Shown in pieces: positions 972 through 14,900 of a stretch of DNA of 64,000 bases. The notes under the pieces are model-generated. The model was not told where the DNA came from and ran no database searches. It saw only the letters and a list, made by a program, of their open reading frames with translations. The stretch comes from a virus: the IMG/VR virus record IMGVR_UViG_3300028676_000005, positions 1 through 64,000 of that record. One strand, given 5' to 3'. The translations under genes were made by a program, and so were the position numbers. Each line of letters starts with the position of its first letter. Within the stretch, counting starts at the first letter, position 1.

Positions 972-3023
972 TTAGTATTGCGGGTTGAAGAAGTTCATCA
1001 TCTGAGCACCGCCACCCATGGCGTTGTTGCTGCCAGCAGTGTGCGTAGTAGCCAGGCCACCACCAGGAGCGAAGGCCAGCTTGTTGACGCGGAACGAACC
1101 GAGGTTGTTCGCGGAGTTCAGTTGACCGATGCCATCCATCGCGGCGCCCAGTACTGCCATGAAGTCAGGTGCCCACACAGCCGCGGTACCGAATGCGTTG
1201 ATGTGGTTGCGACCGTCGAACAGGGAAGAACCGTGCTCAACACGCAGCAGCTGAGAACGCTGTTTCACGTTCTGGTTTGCTTGCGAGCCGTAGACGATGC
1301 CCATGAAGTTTTCGATACCAGCTTTCGATGCAGCCGTCGCGCCTGGTTTGGCGTTGCAGATGTACATCTCGTCGACTTCGAGGGTGTTGATGTGACGCTC
1401 TTTGTCGTCCTTGCTCACCTGGCTGACTGCCAGACCGTTCACCACGATGGTGTTGGTACGGATCAGGATCGGCTTGCTTGGGTTCCAGCCGCGGCCGGTG
1501 GTGATGTTTTCCTGGATGATCTTCGAGAAGCGCTTCTTCGACATGGAGTCGATGAGTGCAACCACAACCTTGACTGCGTCTTGGTTGTTGACCGGATCGA
1601 GCAGGCGACGCATGAAACGAACGATCGGCGAATCGACACCGCTGTCGACCAGGTTGTACTTGAACGTTGCGTGTGGAGAAACGTTCTGGTGTACCCAGCT
1701 GGTAACGAAGTCGGTATCGTTGATGTTCTTTTCGTTCAGCGGAGCGCGCAGGGTTGGGTTGAGGATCGCCTGAGCATTTGGCATGCCAGCGATAACCATC
1801 TGGATACGAGTTTCCAGACCAGCCATGGAGCCACGGCCACCGACGTGCAGTTTACGCAGAGCATCAGCCCAGACGTACTGTTGGTTGGTGGTCATCAGCG
1901 TGTAGAGACCGAAGAAGATCGGGTACAGGCCGCCGTTGTTGTGCATCATTTCGCCAGCGGTTACGTTTTCGAGAGTGATCTCTGGACGCAGCGGACGGTA
2001 CGAGCCTTGGTAAATCGAGTTGTTCATCGAGTTACCGAACCAGCTACGCAGGTTGGTCATGTAGTCAGCAGACTGCGACAGTGCGAACTGCTGAGCCTGG
2101 TACTCTTCCCAGGTTACACCAGTCAGCGATACCGACGCAGTGATGCGGGCGATTTCGCGGGAGCTGTCGTTGTTCGGGTTGTAGTTGCCGTTGCCATTAC
2201 GGTTGTTGACGGTGGCTACCACAACTTCCATGTTGGCCGGGCTGAGGGTTTTGGCGTGGGTCACGCGGCCGGATACTGCTTGAACGCGAGCTTCAGCGGT
2301 GTTGTCTTTGCCGTACGGTGTTGCTGGTTCCAGCCATGGAGCTGGGATTTCGCGGCCAGCGGCGACGATCATGTTGGCACCGGTAACCAGCAGGGATTCT
2401 TCCCACTGACGAGCGGCGTACATGGCGATGTTGTGAGCCCAGTCTTTCTGATCGCCCGCTTCCGGGTGACCCAGCATTTCCATGTCCTGGACGAACAGGT
2501 TGATCACTTCGATGCCGGTGGCGCCGTTGGTTTGTGCAACACGGCCGTAGTGCTCTTTCAGCTTGGCGATGAACTGAGCGTTGACCTGAGCGGCCGGAGT
2601 CACTGGGATCGATACGCGTTGTTGCTGTGCGGTACCCTGGTTGACGTCGATGTGCTCGGTAGCGAAGCTGTTTTCGCGGTTAGAGAACAGCATGCCCATG
2701 ATGTACATGGTGCCGTCGAGTACGACGTAGAAGCCCAGGCCAGGCAACGCCGAGGAGATGGCAGAGGTCAGGTGTTCAACGGTCGGGATGATCTGACGCT
2801 GGTGTGCGTCGGTGGTCGATGTTTGGATGTTCTTGTAGATGCCTTCGGTCAGCACCTTGTAGACGTCGTCTACGATCTTCATGCCGCGGTTGTCGGCTAC
2901 CAGGGAGTTGACACGGAACAGACGATCCAGGATACCACCACCGGTGCTACCTTGTTGTTGAGCATTGTTGCCGTTGTTTTCCTGCCAGTTGTTGAATTCG
3001 TTGTTTTCAGTTTCCAGACCCAT
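972..3023 (-). CDS. chmA: Chimallin-like major nuclear shell protein
   Basis: 683-residue protein. The first 30 or so residues are Asn/Gln/Gly-rich and probably disordered. A folded core follows from about residue 33 to 645, then a Gly/Asn/Met-rich tail that ends in NPQY. This architecture (flexible N segment, two-domain core, flexible C-terminal segments) and the position just before an RNAP beta-prime fragment match ChmA (phiKZ gp54, 201phi2-1 gp105), which forms the lattice enclosing replicating phage DNA. The known proteins are about 630 residues. Codon choice is visibly more GC-rich and biased than in neighbours, which fits very high expression. It has its own promoter-like motif (TGTATTAC, 3110-3117) and terminator. 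RBS GGAAAAAG precedes ATG 3023. The main alternative is another abundant structural protein such as the capsid, but I see no HK97 or processing signature. Confidence 0.68.
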   Translation of the reverse strand: MGLETENNEFNNWQENNGNNAQQQGSTGGGILDRLFRVNSLVADNRGMKIVDDVYKVLTEGIYKNIQTSTTDAHQRQIIPTVEHLTSAISSALPGLGFYVVLDGTMYIMGMLFSNRENSFATEHIDVNQGTAQQQRVSIPVTPAAQVNAQFIAKLKEHYGRVAQTNGATGIEVINLFVQDMEMLGHPEAGDQKDWAHNIAMYAARQWEESLLVTGANMIVAAGREIPAPWLEPATPYGKDNTAEARVQAVSGRVTHAKTLSPANMEVVVATVNNRNGNGNYNPNNDSSREIARITASVSLTGVTWEEYQAQQFALSQSADYMTNLRSWFGNSMNNSIYQGSYRPLRPEITLENVTAGEMMHNNGGLYPIFFGLYTLMTTNQQYVWADALRKLHVGGRGSMAGLETRIQMVIAGMPNAQAILNPTLRAPLNEKNINDTDFVTSWVHQNVSPHATFKYNLVDSGVDSPIVRFMRRLLDPVNNQDAVKVVVALIDSMSKKRFSKIIQENITTGRGWNPSKPILIRTNTIVVNGLAVSQVSKDDKERHINTLEVDEMYICNAKPGATAASKAGIENFMGIVYGSQANQNVKQRSQLLRVEHGSSLFDGRNHINAFGTAAVWAPDFMAVLGAAMDGIGQLNSANNLGSFRVNKLAFAPGGGLATTHTAGSNNAMGGGAQMMNFFNPQY

Positions 3024-4424: not shown

Positions 4425-6533
4425 TTAATGTTCGTCTGAAACCAAACGCGTCACTTTGCTGTTCATGAAGTACAACCCTAACGATTCCAGGATGGCATAG
4501 ATGCTCTTAAAGTTCTGTTGGATAATGAGACGTGTGTCTACAATAGGCAACAACTCTTTAGGAATACCTCCCAGGTTAGCTACCATGTCTTCAGGGATAT
4601 ACACCGCAGTCAACTTAGGCCGACTTTCGATATACGCACTAAAGGTTTTGGTATAAGCACTTTCACCCAAGGAATCAAAATAGACTTTCATTTTGCTCTT
4701 GTTGTGTAATGCCAGGTTGACTTTAACCGCACGATAAGGCAACTCTGGTGCTTTGCCGTAACTAGCGCTAAACACAGATTCCCACAGCTCGTGATAATAA
4801 TGAATGGAGGACTCAGGATTAGTGTAGGCTGATTCCTCTTTAATGTTTTCTTTACGCAACCAAGTTACACCGCCAGTTTTAATGTCGGTGAACAATGCAC
4901 GTTCCAGATCGCCAATCTCACCAAGGATTTCAGCTGCATCAAGTTTCTTCTTCTTGTAGATGGCATCCAGTACATTTCGCATAAGCTTGTTAGTAAAGTC
5001 GCGTACCATCTTAGCGATTTTAATCCCTCTAAGGTGAACACCTTTAAGTTCTAACTTAGGCACCTTGTGCAAAACACCCTCAAGCATCAACTGCATGGCG
5101 TAATAGTGTTTAGACATAAGGGTGGTAACATACGAACTGAACAGGTATTCGTTCTTCATGGTCAAACGGTTACGGAACCGGTTAGCCACGTTCATGTTAA
5201 CACTTAGACGAGCGTGTTGGTCTACAGAAGCGCAACGAATAAAGTACGTCATCGCCGCGTTGAAGCAAATGCCACTTTCTTCGTCGTCAACGTAATCATC
5301 AATGATCATGTCAACGGAATAGATCATGGAGTCAGTGTCGGAAGTCAGAACGTTTTCACGAACCAACTCTTTGATACTGAAGATACTTGTAGGTGGGATG
5401 TCTGCCCGCAAGAAAGCACTAATAAAAGTAGCCCACTTACGTTCCATCTCCACATGGTATCCGTTTACATAAGCCATTTCATCTTTGTTTGGCTTACGAC
5501 CCAACTTAGTTACGATCATAGTCTCATAATCGTCGTTAGCTGGTTTGATACCGTCCTCTGCTTTAAAGCCTTCTGGCATTACAGGGATGTGGCACCATTC
5601 ATTAAAGAACCGTTTCATCAGCTCTTTGTTAGTGGTGTACAGCCCGCGCAAGTCCATTGTGCAGAGGATAATTGTTAGTTCAAGCTTGTTAAGCCCGCGC
5701 AAGAACATCCTGATCGCTTTAAGCTGACTAGGGTTGTTCCAGTAATAACCAGCGCAACGTTTAACCATGTCCATGACTTGGTCAACTGTTGCATAGTTCA
5801 TTTTGTATTCGTTGATTACATCTTGAATCTCATCACGACGAGAGAACGCCAAAGTGCTCAGGAAGAGCTCCATGGTCTTATCGTAGCTGAGCAGTAACCT
5901 GTTACCGGTAATCAGTCGTTCGTTAAGCAGGTTGGCCGTAGAGGTGACGATACGGCAAGTACTAGTCAACGACGTGTGACCAGACTTGTTAAACAGTGGG
6001 GTGCCTGATGAGGACATGCCGCCAGATTGTGCGTTGTTAAAGATCTTCAGCGCTTTCTGAAATTCGTCAAATGCTTTCTTGGCTTCGTCATCGCCAACTG
6101 CAATTGCTTCTTTCATCTTACCTTTATAAAGTGCGCGAAACTTCATAAAGGTTTCGGTACCAATCGAATTAACCGATTGTTCGTCGTCTGCGTGTTTGTA
6201 CGCTACTAACGAAGGAGACAATACCCAATTGTTTTGCCTAACTGTATTAAAGAACTCGTTGGCGCCCATTACAACAGGTACACGGTCACCGTGCTTGTTC
6301 TTTTTGAATACACCAAACTTTACTTCTTTAAAGCCATTCTCATTTGGTATGAAGACTTTTTCGCACAATTCCAATACGTGCTTGTAATCATGACCGTAAA
6401 AGTTTGCTAAGTAGATTGCCGCTTGTACGTGGTACGATTTAAGGATATCCCGATTGGGTACATAATCCTGTGCAATAAACGGAGAAAGTTTAACTTCTCT
6501 CGCTTTATCAAAATTCAAGACTTGAGCTGTCAT
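4425..6533 (-). CDS. Divergent family B DNA polymerase, catalytic part
   Basis: 702 residues. Residues 399-402 read DTDS inside TSDTDSMIYSV, which is polymerase motif C of family B (two metal-binding aspartates). Residues 160-180 (KIFNNAQSGGMSSSGTPL) match motif B (Kx3NSxYGxxG type), and ELKGVHLRG near residue 497 resembles the palm/thumb KKxY-ExKG region. No clear motif A (DxxSLYPS) and no exonuclease motifs appear in the N-terminal 160 residues, so this is probably one half of a split polymerase, as proposed for phiKZ-type phages (phiKZ gp44 lies at the same place between PhuZ and the shell protein). It would synthesise phage DNA in the nucleus. ATG 6533 has AAGGG upstream. It follows the small-gene string after a terminator at 6582-6615, so it may have its own promoter. 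Confidence 0.75.
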   Translation of the reverse strand: MTAQVLNFDKAREVKLSPFIAQDYVPNRDILKSYHVQAAIYLANFYGHDYKHVLELCEKVFIPNENGFKEVKFGVFKKNKHGDRVPVVMGANEFFNTVRQNNWVLSPSLVAYKHADDEQSVNSIGTETFMKFRALYKGKMKEAIAVGDDEAKKAFDEFQKALKIFNNAQSGGMSSSGTPLFNKSGHTSLTSTCRIVTSTANLLNERLITGNRLLLSYDKTMELFLSTLAFSRRDEIQDVINEYKMNYATVDQVMDMVKRCAGYYWNNPSQLKAIRMFLRGLNKLELTIILCTMDLRGLYTTNKELMKRFFNEWCHIPVMPEGFKAEDGIKPANDDYETMIVTKLGRKPNKDEMAYVNGYHVEMERKWATFISAFLRADIPPTSIFSIKELVRENVLTSDTDSMIYSVDMIIDDYVDDEESGICFNAAMTYFIRCASVDQHARLSVNMNVANRFRNRLTMKNEYLFSSYVTTLMSKHYYAMQLMLEGVLHKVPKLELKGVHLRGIKIAKMVRDFTNKLMRNVLDAIYKKKKLDAAEILGEIGDLERALFTDIKTGGVTWLRKENIKEESAYTNPESSIHYYHELWESVFSASYGKAPELPYRAVKVNLALHNKSKMKVYFDSLGESAYTKTFSAYIESRPKLTAVYIPEDMVANLGGIPKELLPIVDTRLIIQQNFKSIYAILESLGLYFMNSKVTRLVSDEH

Positions 6534-9355: not shown

Positions 9356-10372
9356 TTACAGGATCAAACCATTGGCGTTGGCATTGCTTGCTTCAACGGT
9401 GCGGCTGACGAAGGTACTGCTGGTCTGCGCTTTGCGTTTTTCCAGTTCCGCCAGTTGTTCGGTCAGCGTGGCTACGGACTCGCCGTGGTCCAGCAACATG
9501 TGCATTTGGTTTACGCCTTCTGGCAGGACAGTATTCGGAGAGAAGACACCAATCGAACGAACCACAGCGCCTTCAAAAGCAACAGTGATGTTTTCACGCT
9601 TGTCGTACAGGCTCAGGTGGGCAACAGGAGTCTTGCCTTTGAACTTGGCCGGCTCGTCATAGAACGAGATGTGCGACAGGGTTGGTGCAACCTTGTAGTT
9701 CTTGGAGTAGTCCAGAATTTCCAGCAGGTCGCTGATGTCTTGTTCTTCGTTTTCACGAGTGGCGTACAGCGAGAGGAGCGAGATCTTGTTGATCAGTGCG
9801 CGGTCAATCTGGCCGCGGGTCTTGCCTGCTTCGTTACGGAATTCCATATAAGGAATTGCGGCGTTCAGTAGGTTAGGCCCGGTTTGCAGCAGCAGGGAGT
9901 GAACGGTCTTCAGGGAGTTTTCCATTTCTACCTGGGTGGTGTGGTCAGTGATGATTGCTACGACCACGCCTTTGTAGCCTTGTTGCTTCAACCAACGCAC
10001 GGTCAACAGAGCCAGCATGGAACCAGAACCACCGGCACCGGAGCACAGAACCACAACTACGCCTTTAGGACGGTTTTGAGTCAGGGTCTGGTCAACGAAA
10101 GGAATTGCTTCCTCGTAGTTGGCGCCCATTACTTTGCCGGAGCCTTGTGCTTCTTTTTCATTTGGGGTGCCGCCCTTAGGAGCAGGTACGCGGAACAGAG
10201 GAATGTTCAGTTCTGGCTTCAGGCGATTGTTGCCGCTGGCGTCGATAGCGATGTAACTGGCATTGGTGACACTGGCGCTCAGACCGCTGGTCTTCAACAG
10301 CATTGCCATGTTGATACCGGCGCCGCCACATGCGATGAAGCTCAATTCGGAATTAACAACTTGATTAGACAT
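9356..10372 (-). CDS. phuZ: Phage tubulin PhuZ
   Basis: 338 residues. Residues 111-118 (SGAGGSGS) are the tubulin/FtsZ GTP-binding signature loop, preceded by an FtsZ-like N terminus with a glycine-rich first loop (CGGAGINMAML, residues 15-25). The length fits phage PhuZ (about 315-345). PhuZ polymerises into a dynamic spindle that centres the phage nucleus in the host cell and carries capsids to it; it is found in phiKZ, PhiPA3 and 201phi2-1. The C-terminal tail is Ser/Asn/Ala-rich and less acidic than in the best-studied homologues. It has its own TATATTAC motif 67 bases upstream (10440-10447) and a strong terminator, so it is a monocistronic unit, and it shows the biased codon use of abundant proteins. 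Confidence 0.93.
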   Translation of the reverse strand: MSNQVVNSELSFIACGGAGINMAMLLKTSGLSASVTNASYIAIDASGNNRLKPELNIPLFRVPAPKGGTPNEKEAQGSGKVMGANYEEAIPFVDQTLTQNRPKGVVVVLCSGAGGSGSMLALLTVRWLKQQGYKGVVVAIITDHTTQVEMENSLKTVHSLLLQTGPNLLNAAIPYMEFRNEAGKTRGQIDRALINKISLLSLYATRENEEQDISDLLEILDYSKNYKVAPTLSHISFYDEPAKFKGKTPVAHLSLYDKRENITVAFEGAVVRSIGVFSPNTVLPEGVNQMHMLLDHGESVATLTEQLAELEKRKAQTSSTFVSRTVEASNANANGLIL

Positions 10373-10439: not shown

Positions 10440-10448
10440 GTAATATAG
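10440..10448 (-). promoter_or_regulatory. Early-type promoter motif upstream of phuZ
   Basis: Minus-strand CTATATTAC, exactly the phiKZ early core TATATTAC, about 67 bases before the phuZ start, with an A/T-rich flank (AAAAACTTTTTGG). Confidence 0.75.
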
Positions 10449-10504
10449 AGCCAAAAAGTTTTTGACTCCTATAATTAGTTGATACAGTTAAAATGCAAAA
10501 AAAA

Positions 10505-10544
10505 GCCTCGTTCTCAGAACCCGATTAAAGGTCTGAGACGAGGG
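10505..10544 (-). terminator. Hairpin terminator of the tRNA cluster
   Basis: CCTCGTTCTCAGA / TCTGAGACGAGG; on the minus strand it is followed by a run of eight T. It ends transcription of the tRNA cluster before phuZ. Confidence 0.85.
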
Positions 10545-10864
10545 TGGAGTATCAAACGGTTACAAACTCTTGTACTTAAACAAGAGGCAGGAATATAAAC
10601 ACCAGGCCTTTCGTTATGTGCCAGTATATTCGCGGTTCGCAATACCGGTGGTTCACAAAAGGTCTGGCGGGAAGTTTTCATTGGTCTTTTTACATCGACC
10701 AGCAACCAACAAGCCTTGGGAGGTACCCGTTGGTTGGCTACAAAGGACTTCCTAACCTCTACAGCAAGCGACAAACACCAGGCGAAAAGAGACGTCCAAC
10801 TGACATCTCCGCAAACAGTGAAGGATGGCACTGTTTACTTACACGGCCGCTAGACCATGTTGGG
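10545..10864 (-). other. Non-coding 3' end of the tRNA cluster
   Basis: No credible gene; short open frames lack ribosome sites. It contains two clear hairpins: AACCAAC (10704-10710) with GTTGGTT (10729-10735), and AAACAGTG (10813-10820) with CACTGTTT (10829-10836). On the minus strand it is the 3' part of the tRNA transcript. Confidence 0.6.
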
Positions 10865-10956
10865 TGGAAGACTGGATGGATTCGAACCACCGACCAGCGA
10901 GGAGGGTAAATGATACCCGAGGACTCCCCGTTCTAACCAACTGAACTACAGTCTTC
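10865..10956 (-). tRNA. tRNA of uncertain identity with enlarged anticodon arm
   Basis: The acceptor stem (AAGACTG/CAGTCTT, plus an extra G-C pair), D-arm (GTTC...GAAC with AGTTGGTTA loop) and T-arm (GGTGG TTCGAAT CCATC) are canonical. Between the D stem and the variable loop there are about 12-15 more bases than normal. A possible outer stem (CGGGGAG/CTCCTCG) encloses an inner hairpin GGGT-ATCATTT-ACCC, which would show anticodon CAT after U33. No normal 7-base anticodon loop closed by a 5-bp stem can be drawn at the standard position. CCA is not clearly encoded. It may be an interrupted tRNA, a modified-arm tRNA or a decayed one. Confidence 0.6.
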
Positions 10957-10961
10957 ACATT

Positions 10962-11050
10962 TGGGGGAAAGGGCAGGACTTGAACCTACGACCTCCGAAC
11001 AAAGGCATGACCATTCGCACGGTGCTCTAACCAACTGAGCTACAGTTCCC
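10962..11050 (-). tRNA. tRNA of uncertain identity with enlarged anticodon region
   Basis: Canonical D-arm (GCTC AGTTGGTTA GAGC), variable loop AGGTC, T-arm (GTAGG TTCAAGT CCTGC) and encoded 3' CCA. The acceptor stem is imperfect (GGAACTG vs CCTTTCC, with a possible G-1:C73 pair). Between base 26 and the variable loop there are 28 bases instead of 17. Only the outermost CCG/CGG pairs at the expected place; the interior holds GTCATGC, again with CAT after a U. The amino acid cannot be assigned from sequence alone. Confidence 0.55.
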
Positions 11051-11206: not shown

Positions 11207-11282
11207 TGGCTCCGCGACCTGGACTCGAACCAGGGACCAACAGATTAACAGTCTGCTGCTCTACCAACTGAGCTATCGCGGA
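11207..11282 (-). tRNA. tRNA-Asn (GTT)
   Basis: 76 bases, full cloverleaf: acceptor TCCGCGA/TCGCGGA, anticodon stem CAGA-CTGTTAA-TCTG with anticodon GTT, T-arm with TTCGAGT, encoded CCA. Confidence 0.95.
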
Positions 11283-11414
11283 ATGTAGCAGAAATCATTA
11301 GACATGTCTTAGGACTTTTACCCCACGTTTTTATCAAGGGCCGACTGCCTAGGCGCCCTGCGTGTTTTCTTTCTTTACCAGATTACCTTGATCACGGGGT
11401 CTGATAAAACAATG

Positions 11415-11490
11415 TGGCGGCGTAGCCAGGAGTCGAACCTGGAACCTTCGGTTTTGGAGACCGATGCTCTGCCAGTTGAGCTACTAGGCC
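11415..11490 (-). tRNA. tRNA-Trp (CCA)
   Basis: 76 bases. Anticodon arm TCGGT-CTCCAAA-ACCGA gives anticodon CCA. D-arm GCTC/GAGC, T-arm CCAGG-TTCGACT-CCTGG, encoded 3' CCA. The acceptor GGCCTAG/CTACGCC has one C-C mismatch. Confidence 0.92.
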
Positions 11491-11894
11491 TAATCTAAAT
11501 CTTGGGCGTCATTGGGTTCTTACCACGGGCCTTCAGCGGTGACCGACGACCAGGTCACACCCACGTTCTTCAGCCGAAGCAACGACTAAATCTTGAAATT
11601 GAATCCGTTAGCTATTATCAGGGTAGGAGACTGCCCGGTTACCAAGCCTGATAATAACTGAGTCACCTAGTCACGGAAAACAACGTAGGTAACTGCCAGG
11701 ACACCCCTGGCTGGTGTAACAGAGTTAATCCCCCGACTCCCATCTGTTACTTAACACGAACCACCAGCGTCATGGGTCAGTGTTAACATTTGAATTCAGG
11801 TAGGTCTACAGACTTTTACTGTACGTCATGAGTAACAGACCGGCCTCCAGATCTGTAACGGTTTTCTTCAGGGCGCAGGGCAGCGGCTAGAATA
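11491..11894 (-). other. Structured non-coding spacer within tRNA cluster
   Basis: No coding frame with a ribosome site. Three hairpins are visible: GTGACC/GGTCAC (11539-11558), TATTATCAGG/CCTGATAATA (11613-11622 with 11647-11656), and GTAACAGA/TCTGTTAC (11716-11723 with 11743-11750). A fourth, imperfect one lies near 11830-11860. Loops are 8-24 bases. Confidence 0.55.
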
Positions 11895-12016
11895 AGGTAG
11901 AGAGTGTGGGATTCGAACCCACGGGAGCAAGCTCACAGCCGGTTTCAAAGCCACCGCGCGGAAGACCGTACCGCAACTAATCCACCAGCCTCCTTCAACC
12001 ACTCGGACAACTCTCC
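11895..12016 (-). tRNA. tRNA-Ser (TGA) interrupted by about 35 bases in the anticodon loop
   Basis: Acceptor GGAGAGT/ACTCTCT, class II D-arm (TCCGAGTGGTTGAAGGA), long variable arm (TGTGAGCTTGCTCCC) and T-arm (GTGGG TTCGAAT CCCAC) are those of a bacterial tRNA-Ser. The anticodon stem GCTGG/CCGGC is complete, but the loop is 42 bases. Its 3' end reads TTTGAAA, a perfect Ser TGA loop. Removing 35 bases between positions 31 and 33 would give a standard tRNA. The insert folds as GCGG...CCGC inside. CCA is not fully encoded. It may be intron-bearing, an arm-extended tRNA or a broken gene. Confidence 0.75.
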
Positions 12017-12375: not shown

Positions 12376-12425
12376 CAATGTGTCGTGAGGGACTCGAACC
12401 CTACATGCCGCTATGGCGACAGAAC
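12376..12425 (-). other. tRNA-like 3' fragment
   Basis: A T-arm-like segment (AGGG TTCGAGT CCCT) is followed by ACGACAC, which could be the 3' acceptor strand, but no matching GTGTCGT exists upstream and no CCA follows. It is either a decayed tRNA or one whose 5' half I cannot find. Confidence 0.35.
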
Positions 12426-12484
12426 CCAACCTACGCATTGATGATCTGACTTACCTGCCCGAGGAGACTAAGGTAAATCAAATA

Positions 12485-12561
12485 TGGCGCAACCAAGGGG
12501 ACTCGAACCCCTGACCACCCGCGTGACAGGCGGGTATTCTAACCAACTGAACTATGGGTGC
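12485..12561 (-). tRNA. tRNA-Asp (GTC)
   Basis: 77 bases. Anticodon arm CCCGC-CTGTCAC-GCGGG, anticodon GTC. D-arm GTTC/GAAT, T-arm AGGGG-TTCGAGT-CCCCT, encoded CCA. The acceptor GCACCCA/TGGTTGC has one mismatch. Confidence 0.94.
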
Positions 12562-12574: not shown

Positions 12575-13118
12575 GTAAATCGGGACGAAGTCGATATGAG
12601 TTCTACTCTCATACTCTCTACAAGTGATCGAAGTCACTAGCAGTCTGGATCGCCCTTCATCATCGGCTTTTCATCCTTAAGCGCAGTAAACCCTGACGAC
12701 CGTTAGGCTAGAGGGAACCCACATTGCCCAGGTTTATCCAGATACCATGGAACCCATGGATTCTTTTTCAACACCGTCATATAACAGTGTCGAGTAATAA
12801 GTTAAGGAGAGGTCGCAGACGTGAACCACGGTCCTCTCCTGACCTTGAGACTATGATAAGGGCGGCGCCGCCGATATCACGTAACAAGCCGCCTCACTTT
12901 GTCAGTAGCCAGCCCGCGTGCTTTGCCGCAGAAGCGGCTCCCGCGAAACTGGTCTGTAGTAGACTTAGTGTGACTAAGAGTCTTGACGGGACTCCCATAG
13001 GGTTTTGATAAGAGCGCCTGTCACAGCTAACCCCGACCATCATAATTCATCCGGCACCACCCTTAAGGCTCCGAACAGTTTCCCCAAAGGGAAATTCCGC
13101 GAGATCATTTACTGGTCT
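12562..13118 (-). other. Non-coding leader of the tRNA cluster with tRNA-like fragment
   Basis: No protein gene with a ribosome site. It holds a T-arm-like segment with TTCACGT enclosed by GGAGAGG/CCTCTCC (about 12803-12841), a palindrome GGCGGCGCCGCC (12871-12882), GCCGC/GCGGC (12924-12937) and CTTAGT/ACTAAG (12964-12978). It is bounded on both sides by a 14-base direct repeat. Confidence 0.45.
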
Positions 13119-13132
13119 CTTTGTATAACATA
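13119..13132 (-). repeat. Direct repeat copy 2 (TATGTTATACAAAG on minus strand)
   Basis: Identical to 12561-12574. It lies at the upstream end of the tRNA cluster, seven bases after the stop of the 586-residue gene on the minus strand. It is a candidate promoter for the cluster. Confidence 0.6.
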
Positions 13133-13139
13133 ACAACTC

Positions 13140-14900
13140 TCAGTTTTCTTCTACCAGCGCAAACACAAATTCACCTTCTGATTGATGCACATTCCAGACA
13201 GTTTGCGTTTTAGGTGGGTAGACGTCAGTCTTGCCGAGTGGAGTAACCATTGCGGGAAACTCCATCATGTGCTGCGCGGTAGATATCTTGACCGTGTCAG
13301 TATAAGAACCAGCACCACAAGTAGTCGTAACTCGCACATCGGCTCTGAGAAGCCCTTTAACGTGATCTATTACAAATGCTTTGAACTTATCAAGCCCTTC
13401 TTCAGTAAGGTTGTTTGCAATACCTACAGGGATGTTATCAAGCTTGTCAAGCAAAACTTGTTTCATTTGATCGGTATTGGGGGTTGCTGTTAATACTGCT
13501 TTCGAATCTGCATCAACTTCATCAAAAACAATTTTACCACCGTCGAGAGCATAGACCTTAAAATAGGTCTTGCTTGCTGCTGGCTTAAGTTCTCCGCCAA
13601 GGATGGCCACGTGTGTAGGTGGCAATTCAACAACGCGGTGTGCTGTGTCGAGAGTAACCTGAACGAGATACCCGTTAACATCCGGGGTTACTTTAACAAG
13701 TATGTTTCCCTCAAATGGTTTATAGATCGTGTCGCCAATAGCATTTGTAAGTATTACAAGAGAACTCTTACTCAGCGTGGCGGTTATTTCACTAGGGATA
13801 TCAATTTTGTAATGAGGTTTTTCAATTTCCTCAACACCAGCCAATTGAACTCCGGTGCTTACTGACAACGAGGGTCCTTTCAAAGCATCAACAATGCCTG
13901 AAACAGACGTTTGCGCCGCACTAAGGGTTTCCATAAATTGAGGATGTGCCTCGTAAAAACGTTTACGAGCTAAGGCTGTTTGGTAATAGTCACTCTGTGC
14001 CGTATTATCCAGAGAAAGTTTAGTGAGGATCACAGCGCCCTTATCGCGGTAAACTCCGAAAACACTGTAATCACCCATACCAATATAGGCTTTAAGATCG
14101 GCAGGCAAAAAGTCTTTTGGTGTCATTGTTTTGCCAGGGTAATATGCCGTGCAGCTATATTTGTCATTATCAGCCGCCACTACCAAAACACTGGACAACA
14201 AATTACTAACAATCTCTGGGGTATGGACAATAACAAATGTAACATCTGGGTCATCTGTTAACTGTTTTTCACAAGCTTCTAAAGACTCGGGCGATAATAC
14301 TTCTTCTATTGCGCCGAGGGCTTCCTTGGAATTAAGAAACCAAGGTTTGCCTACTTCAGTTACCGTAATGGTCTTTGACTCAGGATTGTACTTTTCTGCG
14401 TTCTCTTTAAGCAGTGTAAGAAAGACATAAGAAACCAGCTTGGTCTTACGCAATTGTTCAATAATCTCGTCACTGGCATAAACACCATACTCACGCACTA
14501 GCGATGGAGCGATGCAGTAGAACGGGTAGAAGTCCAGTCCGATAAAAGCACCAAACTCAGCACCACGATGCTGCTCTTCCATTTTTTCTGGTTTGAAAAT
14601 GGGAGTACCTGCGATTACGTCTACCGTTTTCTCGGCATAGGTAATCGGTTTGATTGGCTCGGGTGTCCCAACCTTGGTCAGGGCCTTATAATCGATCTTC
14701 GAGATGGTATCACCCTTCTCGTTCATGATCCACGCATCATTGGCGATGATGTGTTTAGAGGGTGGGTTGCTAACCGTAAGTACGGGAACGCCACCCAAGT
14801 CTGGATCAGAGGCAATCACTTGGATGTTGACGGGATCTACCGCAGTGAGGAGCCGGAAGCTTACACCGTCTTTCAAGAGCATCTTTACATGTACAGTCAT
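13140..14900 (-). CDS. Hypothetical protein, 586 aa
   Basis: Unrecognised large soluble protein. ATG 14900 has CAGGAAAC upstream. The sequence is beta-rich (Val/Thr/Ile alternation such as MTVHVKMLLKDG and GNILVKVTPDVNGYLVQVTL), with a helical middle (residues 130-200 and 300-345) and a beta-rich C-terminal part. It has no signal peptide or membrane segment. It is the last gene of the minus-strand unit that starts near 17437 with the proteasome-like hydrolase, separated from its neighbour by a hairpin at 14961-14997. Several short neighbours share its KVLDDRG/GDVI-like beta style, which hints at a family of related proteins, but I cannot show homology by eye. Confidence 0.78.
   Translation of the reverse strand: MTVHVKMLLKDGVSFRLLTAVDPVNIQVIASDPDLGGVPVLTVSNPPSKHIIANDAWIMNEKGDTISKIDYKALTKVGTPEPIKPITYAEKTVDVIAGTPIFKPEKMEEQHRGAEFGAFIGLDFYPFYCIAPSLVREYGVYASDEIIEQLRKTKLVSYVFLTLLKENAEKYNPESKTITVTEVGKPWFLNSKEALGAIEEVLSPESLEACEKQLTDDPDVTFVIVHTPEIVSNLLSSVLVVAADNDKYSCTAYYPGKTMTPKDFLPADLKAYIGMGDYSVFGVYRDKGAVILTKLSLDNTAQSDYYQTALARKRFYEAHPQFMETLSAAQTSVSGIVDALKGPSLSVSTGVQLAGVEEIEKPHYKIDIPSEITATLSKSSLVILTNAIGDTIYKPFEGNILVKVTPDVNGYLVQVTLDTAHRVVELPPTHVAILGGELKPAASKTYFKVYALDGGKIVFDEVDADSKAVLTATPNTDQMKQVLLDKLDNIPVGIANNLTEEGLDKFKAFVIDHVKGLLRADVRVTTTCGAGSYTDTVKISTAQHMMEFPAMVTPLGKTDVYPPKTQTVWNVHQSEGEFVFALVEEN

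Follow-up and report, generated by a model that had tools for sequence, protein, structure and literature searches.

Read from the sequence, a class II tRNA body whose anticodon loop is replaced by a 31- to 35-nt extension occupies one shared position in four phage lineages that have diverged. Because these lineages keep its shape, it looks like a working RNA part, as opposed to a defective gene or an intron that is spliced out. The element lies at 12016–11895 on the minus strand of a 64,000-nt stretch (the window) of a 229,429-bp virus record, which may be incomplete. A gene for the nuclear shell protein chimallin identifies the virus as a nucleus-forming jumbo phage (Table 1). Upstream of its PhuZ tubulin gene, ~2.6 kb of non-coding DNA form an array in which conserved structured RNA modules stand among canonical tRNAs and tRNA-like elements. 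This one cluster accounts for every Rfam tRNA match in the genome, five in total. With moderate confidence, we interpret the element as a non-decoding tRNA-like domain that serves the array as a structural or processing element.

Anatomy and conservation of the tRNA-like element

Read directly, the sequence has the form of a class II tRNA body whose anticodon loop measures 42 nt. The 5′ half runs GGAGAGT TG TCC GAGTGGTTGAA GGA G GCTGG and leads into the loop. The 3′ half consists of CCGGC, a 15-nt variable region, GTGGG TTCGAAT CCCAC and ACTCTCT A CC T. The acceptor (7 bp), D (3 bp), anticodon (5 bp) and T (5 bp) stems are all intact; a single G·U pair (G1·U72) occurs in the acceptor stem and the other three stems are perfect. 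An earlier note on this DNA had described intact class II arms, perfect GCTGG/CCGGC pairing in the anticodon stem and a 42-base loop that ends in TTTGAAA. Each of these points was confirmed. The loop is exactly 35 nt longer than the usual 7, and the anticodon stem is kept in all four copies.

The same note had named the gene tRNA-Ser(TGA). We infer this identity from the last loop bases only, since position 73 is A (usually G in tRNA-Ser) and the D arm is similar also to that of phage tRNA-Tyr. The element ends in ACCT and so encodes no CCA, unlike the canonical Asn, Trp and Asp tRNAs of the cluster. Neither ARAGORN nor Rfam called it in the window. A blastn search of GenBank phages with the 122 nt gave, among the matches listed, only partial ones, mostly to ordinary tRNAs. 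One that looked promising at first, in Burkholderia phage HN02, proved to be an ordinary tRNA-Tyr. A tRNA-Sec identity was rejected on a sub-threshold match of 22 bits.

Table 1. Features of the array and its surroundings. Positions are those of the window unless another contig is named.
Feature	Position	Strand	Basis or remark
Nuclear shell (chimallin) gene	972..3023	-	PHROG 4795, E 9.4e-94
DNA polymerase	4425-6533		
PhuZ tubulin gene, downstream neighbor of array	9356..10372	-	
3′ structured module, CATGG(T)CTAGCGGCCGTGT motif, terminator-like end	10500..10862	-	Alignment, consensus fold
tRNA-like element B	10866..10956	-	Rfam tRNA 44.1 bits; 8-bp acceptor, oversized anticodon arm
tRNA-like element A	10962..11050	-	Rfam tRNA 40.4 bits; anticodon arm replaced by ~30-nt hairpin
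Canonical tRNA-Asn(GTT)	11207..11282	-	ARAGORN, Rfam; 100% identical to that of Pseudomonas phage pPa_SNUABM_DT01
Structured module X, between tRNA-Trp and tRNA-Asn	11286..11414	-	Covariance model R1; 10/25 pairs changed on both sides
Copies of module X in other lineages	L007:2788-2916, 2585-2708; L017:9044-9186; L036:8978-9119; L047:8907-9047		
Canonical tRNA-Trp(CCA)	11415..11490	-	ARAGORN, Rfam
Possible diverged module X copy, just upstream of tRNA-Trp	11491..11592	-	R1 E 0.0067
Conserved non-coding block	11588..11761	-	~170 nt nearly identical to L007 (alignment)
tRNA-like element (class II body, tRNA-Ser-like), 42-nt anticodon loop	11895..12016	-	Direct reading, homologues
Variable region, 15 nt, hairpin GAGC-TT-GCTC	11923..11937	-	Enlarged in L007, L017, L036
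Anticodon stem, 3′ strand CCGGC	11938..11942	-	G27-C43 becomes T-A in L017, L036
Oversized anticodon loop	11943..11984	-	35-nt excess, 11984-11950; TTTGAAA, 11949-11943
Anticodon stem, 5′ strand GCTGG	11985..11989	-	G27-C43 becomes T-A in L017, L036
Homologues of the element	L007:2124-2274; L017:8547-8689; L036:8396-8535; L018:3883-4022		
Degenerate tRNA-like remnant, T arm recognizable	12383..12470	-	Read by eye; poor fold, z +1.0
Canonical tRNA-Asp(GTC)	12485..12561	-	ARAGORN, Rfam
5′ structured module	12780..13140	-	Five-species alignment, consensus fold; 40/84 pairs changed on both sides, loose alignment

Relatives were gathered by PhuZ searches of viral contigs, leaving out the near-identical L008/L016. 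A homologous region lies just upstream of PhuZ in four other lineages, L007, L017, L018/L019/L020/L036 and L047, whose PhuZ proteins are 93%, 61%, 57% and 53% identical to that of the window. Three of the four (L007, L017 and L036/L018) carry the element with the same insertion point. A chance origin is excluded by its being kept in these three further diverged phages. Each of the 4 copies has all 20 tRNA stem pairs, of which 5 have changed on both sides. Covariation of the stems is 0.333 versus 0.160, and 0 of 500 shuffles reached 0.333. The earlier note had also called for a comparison of the locus among related phages; it shows the element with its insert in three of the four lineages and no element in L047. 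The element is therefore not essential in every lineage. Read by eye, the corresponding stretch of L047 holds a long perfect hairpin. Long near-perfect hairpins of the array lie at L047 8415–8490, within this stretch, and at L036 8536–8610, directly after the element.

A decaying tRNA pseudogene would account for the absence of CCA and for A73, and a truly degenerate remnant does lie nearby (12470–12383). This explanation is nonetheless highly improbable, as lineages with PhuZ identities of 57–93% preserve every stem, compensatory changes included, as well as the position and the loop length. The earlier note had left room for a broken gene and had named random decay at the site in related phages as the sign of it. 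The relatives instead keep the position, the approximate length and the pairing, and the stem covariation rules random decay out.

The acceptor, D, anticodon and T stems are paired in 100% of cells across the copies. No copy has the 7-nt anticodon loop with U33 of a functional tRNA; the loops are 42 nt in the window, 41 in L007, 42 in L017 and 38 in L036. As drawn, the element would be unable to decode. The variable arm, 15 nt in the window, is enlarged in the three other copies, to ~45 nt in L007 (read by eye, as the script pattern overshot), 36 in L017 and 37 in L036. CCA is encoded in L036 and missing in the other three (window, L007 and L017). SerRS does not read the anticodon. An anticodon-independent synthetase such as SerRS could thus charge the element, whose acceptor and T arm are kept and which in L036 has its CCA, with the amino acid then used outside translation. 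We consider a chargeable but non-decoding tRNA very unlikely, given A73 in the window and L036, the CCA missing from three of four copies and the very large variable arms.

A covariance model of the element found the known copies at E ~1e-35 or better, scores that are high by construction because these copies built the model. Its other matches in the loci were ordinary tRNAs and, weakly, element B, with no further copies. Among the distant PhuZ relatives, which include EL, RisingSun and FishSpeaker, ARAGORN found no tRNAs adjoining PhuZ in the viral contigs, and the models found no copies in the loci searched. A search of genome contigs yielded one distant PhuZ relative only. ARAGORN made a false tRNA-Gly(CCC) call at L017 8597–8688, overlapping the tRNA-like element. 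Miscalls of this kind may hide similar elements in other phages.

The insert and the question of splicing

The insert differs more between lineages than the body does. Between the window and L007, 30 of 41 loop positions are identical (73%), against 31 of 32 in the 5′ part of the body (97%). Beyond this pair, the inserts share no obvious sequence except their ends, (T/A)GG... and ...GAAA. The 3′ end of the loop is TTTGAAA in the window and L007, GTAGAAA in L017 and CATGAAA, without U33, in L036, so neither the anticodon nor U33 is conserved. Hence the TTTGAAA ending, described earlier as canonical, holds for the first two copies and not for the others.

A symmetric helix of 6–7 bp can close in every insert. 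Three near-independent copies gave p values of 0.075, 0.035 and 0.064 (combined p 0.008). Since the folding energies (MFE) of the inserts alone were not significant except in L017, the case for pairing is built on this symmetric-helix test. The predicted folds have a 6–7-bp anticodon stem, a GGA/GAA-type internal loop and then a second helix; in every copy the loop may close into a longer helical arm. Because these folds extend the anticodon arm, the former anticodon bases would lie inside the arm and outside any loop.

The earlier note had raised processing of an unknown kind. On this reading the insert would be a tiny 31- to 35-nt intron in a real tRNA gene, cut out and sealed by an unknown phage or host endonuclease and ligase. 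The extended arm would then belong to the precursor, much as in the pre-tRNAs of archaea and eukaryotes, whose introns are of similar size and mostly lie within the anticodon loop (PMC4090602). The strongest point for an intron is that excision of 35, 34 and 35 nt leaves a 7-nt loop, U33 and an NGA (Ser) anticodon in the window, L007 and L017. The faster drift of the insert relative to the body also fits. We nevertheless judge an intron distinctly unlikely. L036 would have A33 after excision, and the bases that excision would restore as an anticodon loop are unconserved among the four copies. The insert lies 5′ of the anticodon and not at 37/38. The MFE folds have an internal loop and a helix, not the two 3-nt bulges around 4 bp that make a bulge-helix-bulge. 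Excision also cannot repair the variable arm, which is oversized in three of the four.

The earlier note had proposed to look for ligase and endonuclease genes in the rest of the genome. The EndA splicing endonuclease (PF01974) was not found in the 229-kb genome, while controls matched in 4 archaea. RtcB and Rnl2 ligases were not found in the 229-kb record, possibly incomplete, and a host enzyme could still act. The controls were silent in the search for T4 Rnl1. At 35 nt the insert is too short for a group I or II intron, as the note had argued, and no Rfam match to a ribozyme core was found; a self-splicing intron is ruled out on both grounds. The insert is thus probably not an intron. Element A, in which a 28- to 30-nt hairpin forms the anticodon arm in four lineages (window, L007, L017 and L047), indicates that arm replacement is a general pattern rather than the mark of one intron.

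A structured RNA array upstream of PhuZ

The element is one of several odd ones, as oversized anticodon arms occur also at 11050–10962 and 10956–10866. Around it are structured RNA modules without annotation and other tRNA-like elements, an array that the earlier note had not described. Compensatory changes without a conserved reading frame mark the array as structured and non-coding. Leaving aside the tRNAs and tRNA-like stretches, the array region has no open frame that persists past the closest relative. In consensus structures over five lineages, three modules have 10 of 25, 14 of 43 and 40 of 84 pairs changed on both sides; the alignment of the third is loose. Parts of the array are better conserved than the neighboring gene. 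The modules had no match in Rfam by cmscan, at gathering thresholds over the window and at E<=10 over 8–16 kb. Against GenBank phages, similarity was limited to the tRNAs among the matches listed.

Model R1, built with all five lineages, detected module X in each at E ~1e-30. It stands directly before tRNA-Asn, or before element A in L007, and weaker copies lie beside other tRNAs. The place of the divergent copy in the window corresponds to L007 2585–2708, which scored E 1.4e-8. By eye, AUCAAGG could pair with CCUUGA in a conserved pseudoknot. Module X alone had no GenBank phage match at blastn sensitivity.

Alignment shows tRNAs gained, lost and exchanged between conserved blocks. L007 lacks element B and the degenerate remnant. 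The block at 11761–11588, nearly identical to L007, has flanks only ~80% identical. The match of tRNA-Asn to phage pPa_SNUABM_DT01 hints at a pseudomonad host or a recent tRNA exchange. The CATGG-CTAGCGGCCGTGT motif stands at the start of the 3′ module, and a scan of all viral contigs found it in this clade only. The phage collection searched yielded no isolate of the clade.

The sequence TATGTTATACAA is repeated on the minus strand at 13133–13121, the start of the array, and at 12575–12563, just before tRNA-Asp; this repetition hints at two start sites. It occurs also at L036 8380, before the tRNA-like element, and at L047 7485, and is possibly a phage promoter. Upstream of PhuZ, TATATTAC lies at 10447–10437 (minus strand) and resembles the phiKZ early-promoter motif. 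The array as a whole is apparently an undescribed family of structured phage RNA adjoining PhuZ in nucleus-forming jumbo phages.

Possible roles and known systems

As a non-decoding domain of the array, the element would be neither spliced nor used to read codons. The extension would fold back and pair along its own length, so that the anticodon loop becomes an internal loop within a longer helical arm; in most copies this would be a purine loop of the GGA/GAA type. Selection would then keep the L-shaped elbow and the acceptor stem, which could serve as a folded domain and as a signal for RNase P/RNase Z cutting or for end protection. Such a signal would act within a long structured non-coding transcript that also bears ordinary tRNAs, and the long arm may be a structural or protein-docking strut. 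More tentatively, the 2.6-kb region may be one very large structured phage RNA, with tRNAs and anticodon-less tRNA-like domains as interchangeable blocks, the element being one of them. It is an equally tentative suggestion that such a single large RNA is a scaffold or cage in the manner of GOLLD and ROOL, unrelated in sequence.

Elements of this kind are discarded or misnamed by tRNA finders: ARAGORN was blank in the window and gave a false tRNA-Gly in L017. If loop-less tRNA bodies are selected in phage tRNA arrays, some "phage tRNAs" would serve outside translation, with a bearing on why phages have tRNAs at all, a question of long standing.

tRNA mimicry through the acceptor and T arm, with the anticodon arm altered or replaced, is known from tmRNA, bacterial Y RNAs (YrlA) and mascRNA. 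The element shares this combination. ARAGORN called no tmRNA. A YrlA/Ro60 relationship was rejected, as the 20.7-bit match (threshold 69) lay elsewhere and the genome has no Ro60/TROVE protein. Archaeal and eukaryotic tRNA introns likewise are short anticodon-loop inserts that extend the anticodon arm; here, in contrast, the insert is 5′ of the anticodon, bulge-helix-bulge and EndA are absent, and the anticodon is unconserved. Group I introns in bacterial and phage tRNAs also interrupt the anticodon loop, but 35 nt cannot hold a ribozyme and no Rfam match was found.

Phage tRNAs have been proposed to evade anticodon nucleases through changes in the anticodon loop, and mycobacteriophages avoid Ser NGA anticodons, which are cut at GA (PMC10264068). 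The earlier note had offered resistance to anticodon nucleases as one possible reading of the element. The element could by analogy be a decoy or sponge: lacking an anticodon loop that can be cleaved, such a tRNA mimic would titrate host anticodon nucleases or other tRNA-sensing defenses, or survive them. Two elements of the array have indeed lost their anticodon loops. This role is unlikely, since a decoy should retain the recognized loop, a resistant tRNA should still decode and the target nuclease is not known for these hosts. Nuclease-evading tRNAs (PMC10264068) are likewise phage-encoded with an altered loop, but they are still able to decode, whereas here the loop is gone.

Closest in kind to the array are GOLLD and ROOL, large structured phage RNAs often found near tRNA islands; GOLLD at times has tRNAs within it (PMC12286853). 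The array differs from them in that it matched the Rfam model of neither in the cmscan searches described above. Its modules, unlike those RNAs, alternate with several tRNAs, and it includes tRNA-like elements with rebuilt anticodon arms.
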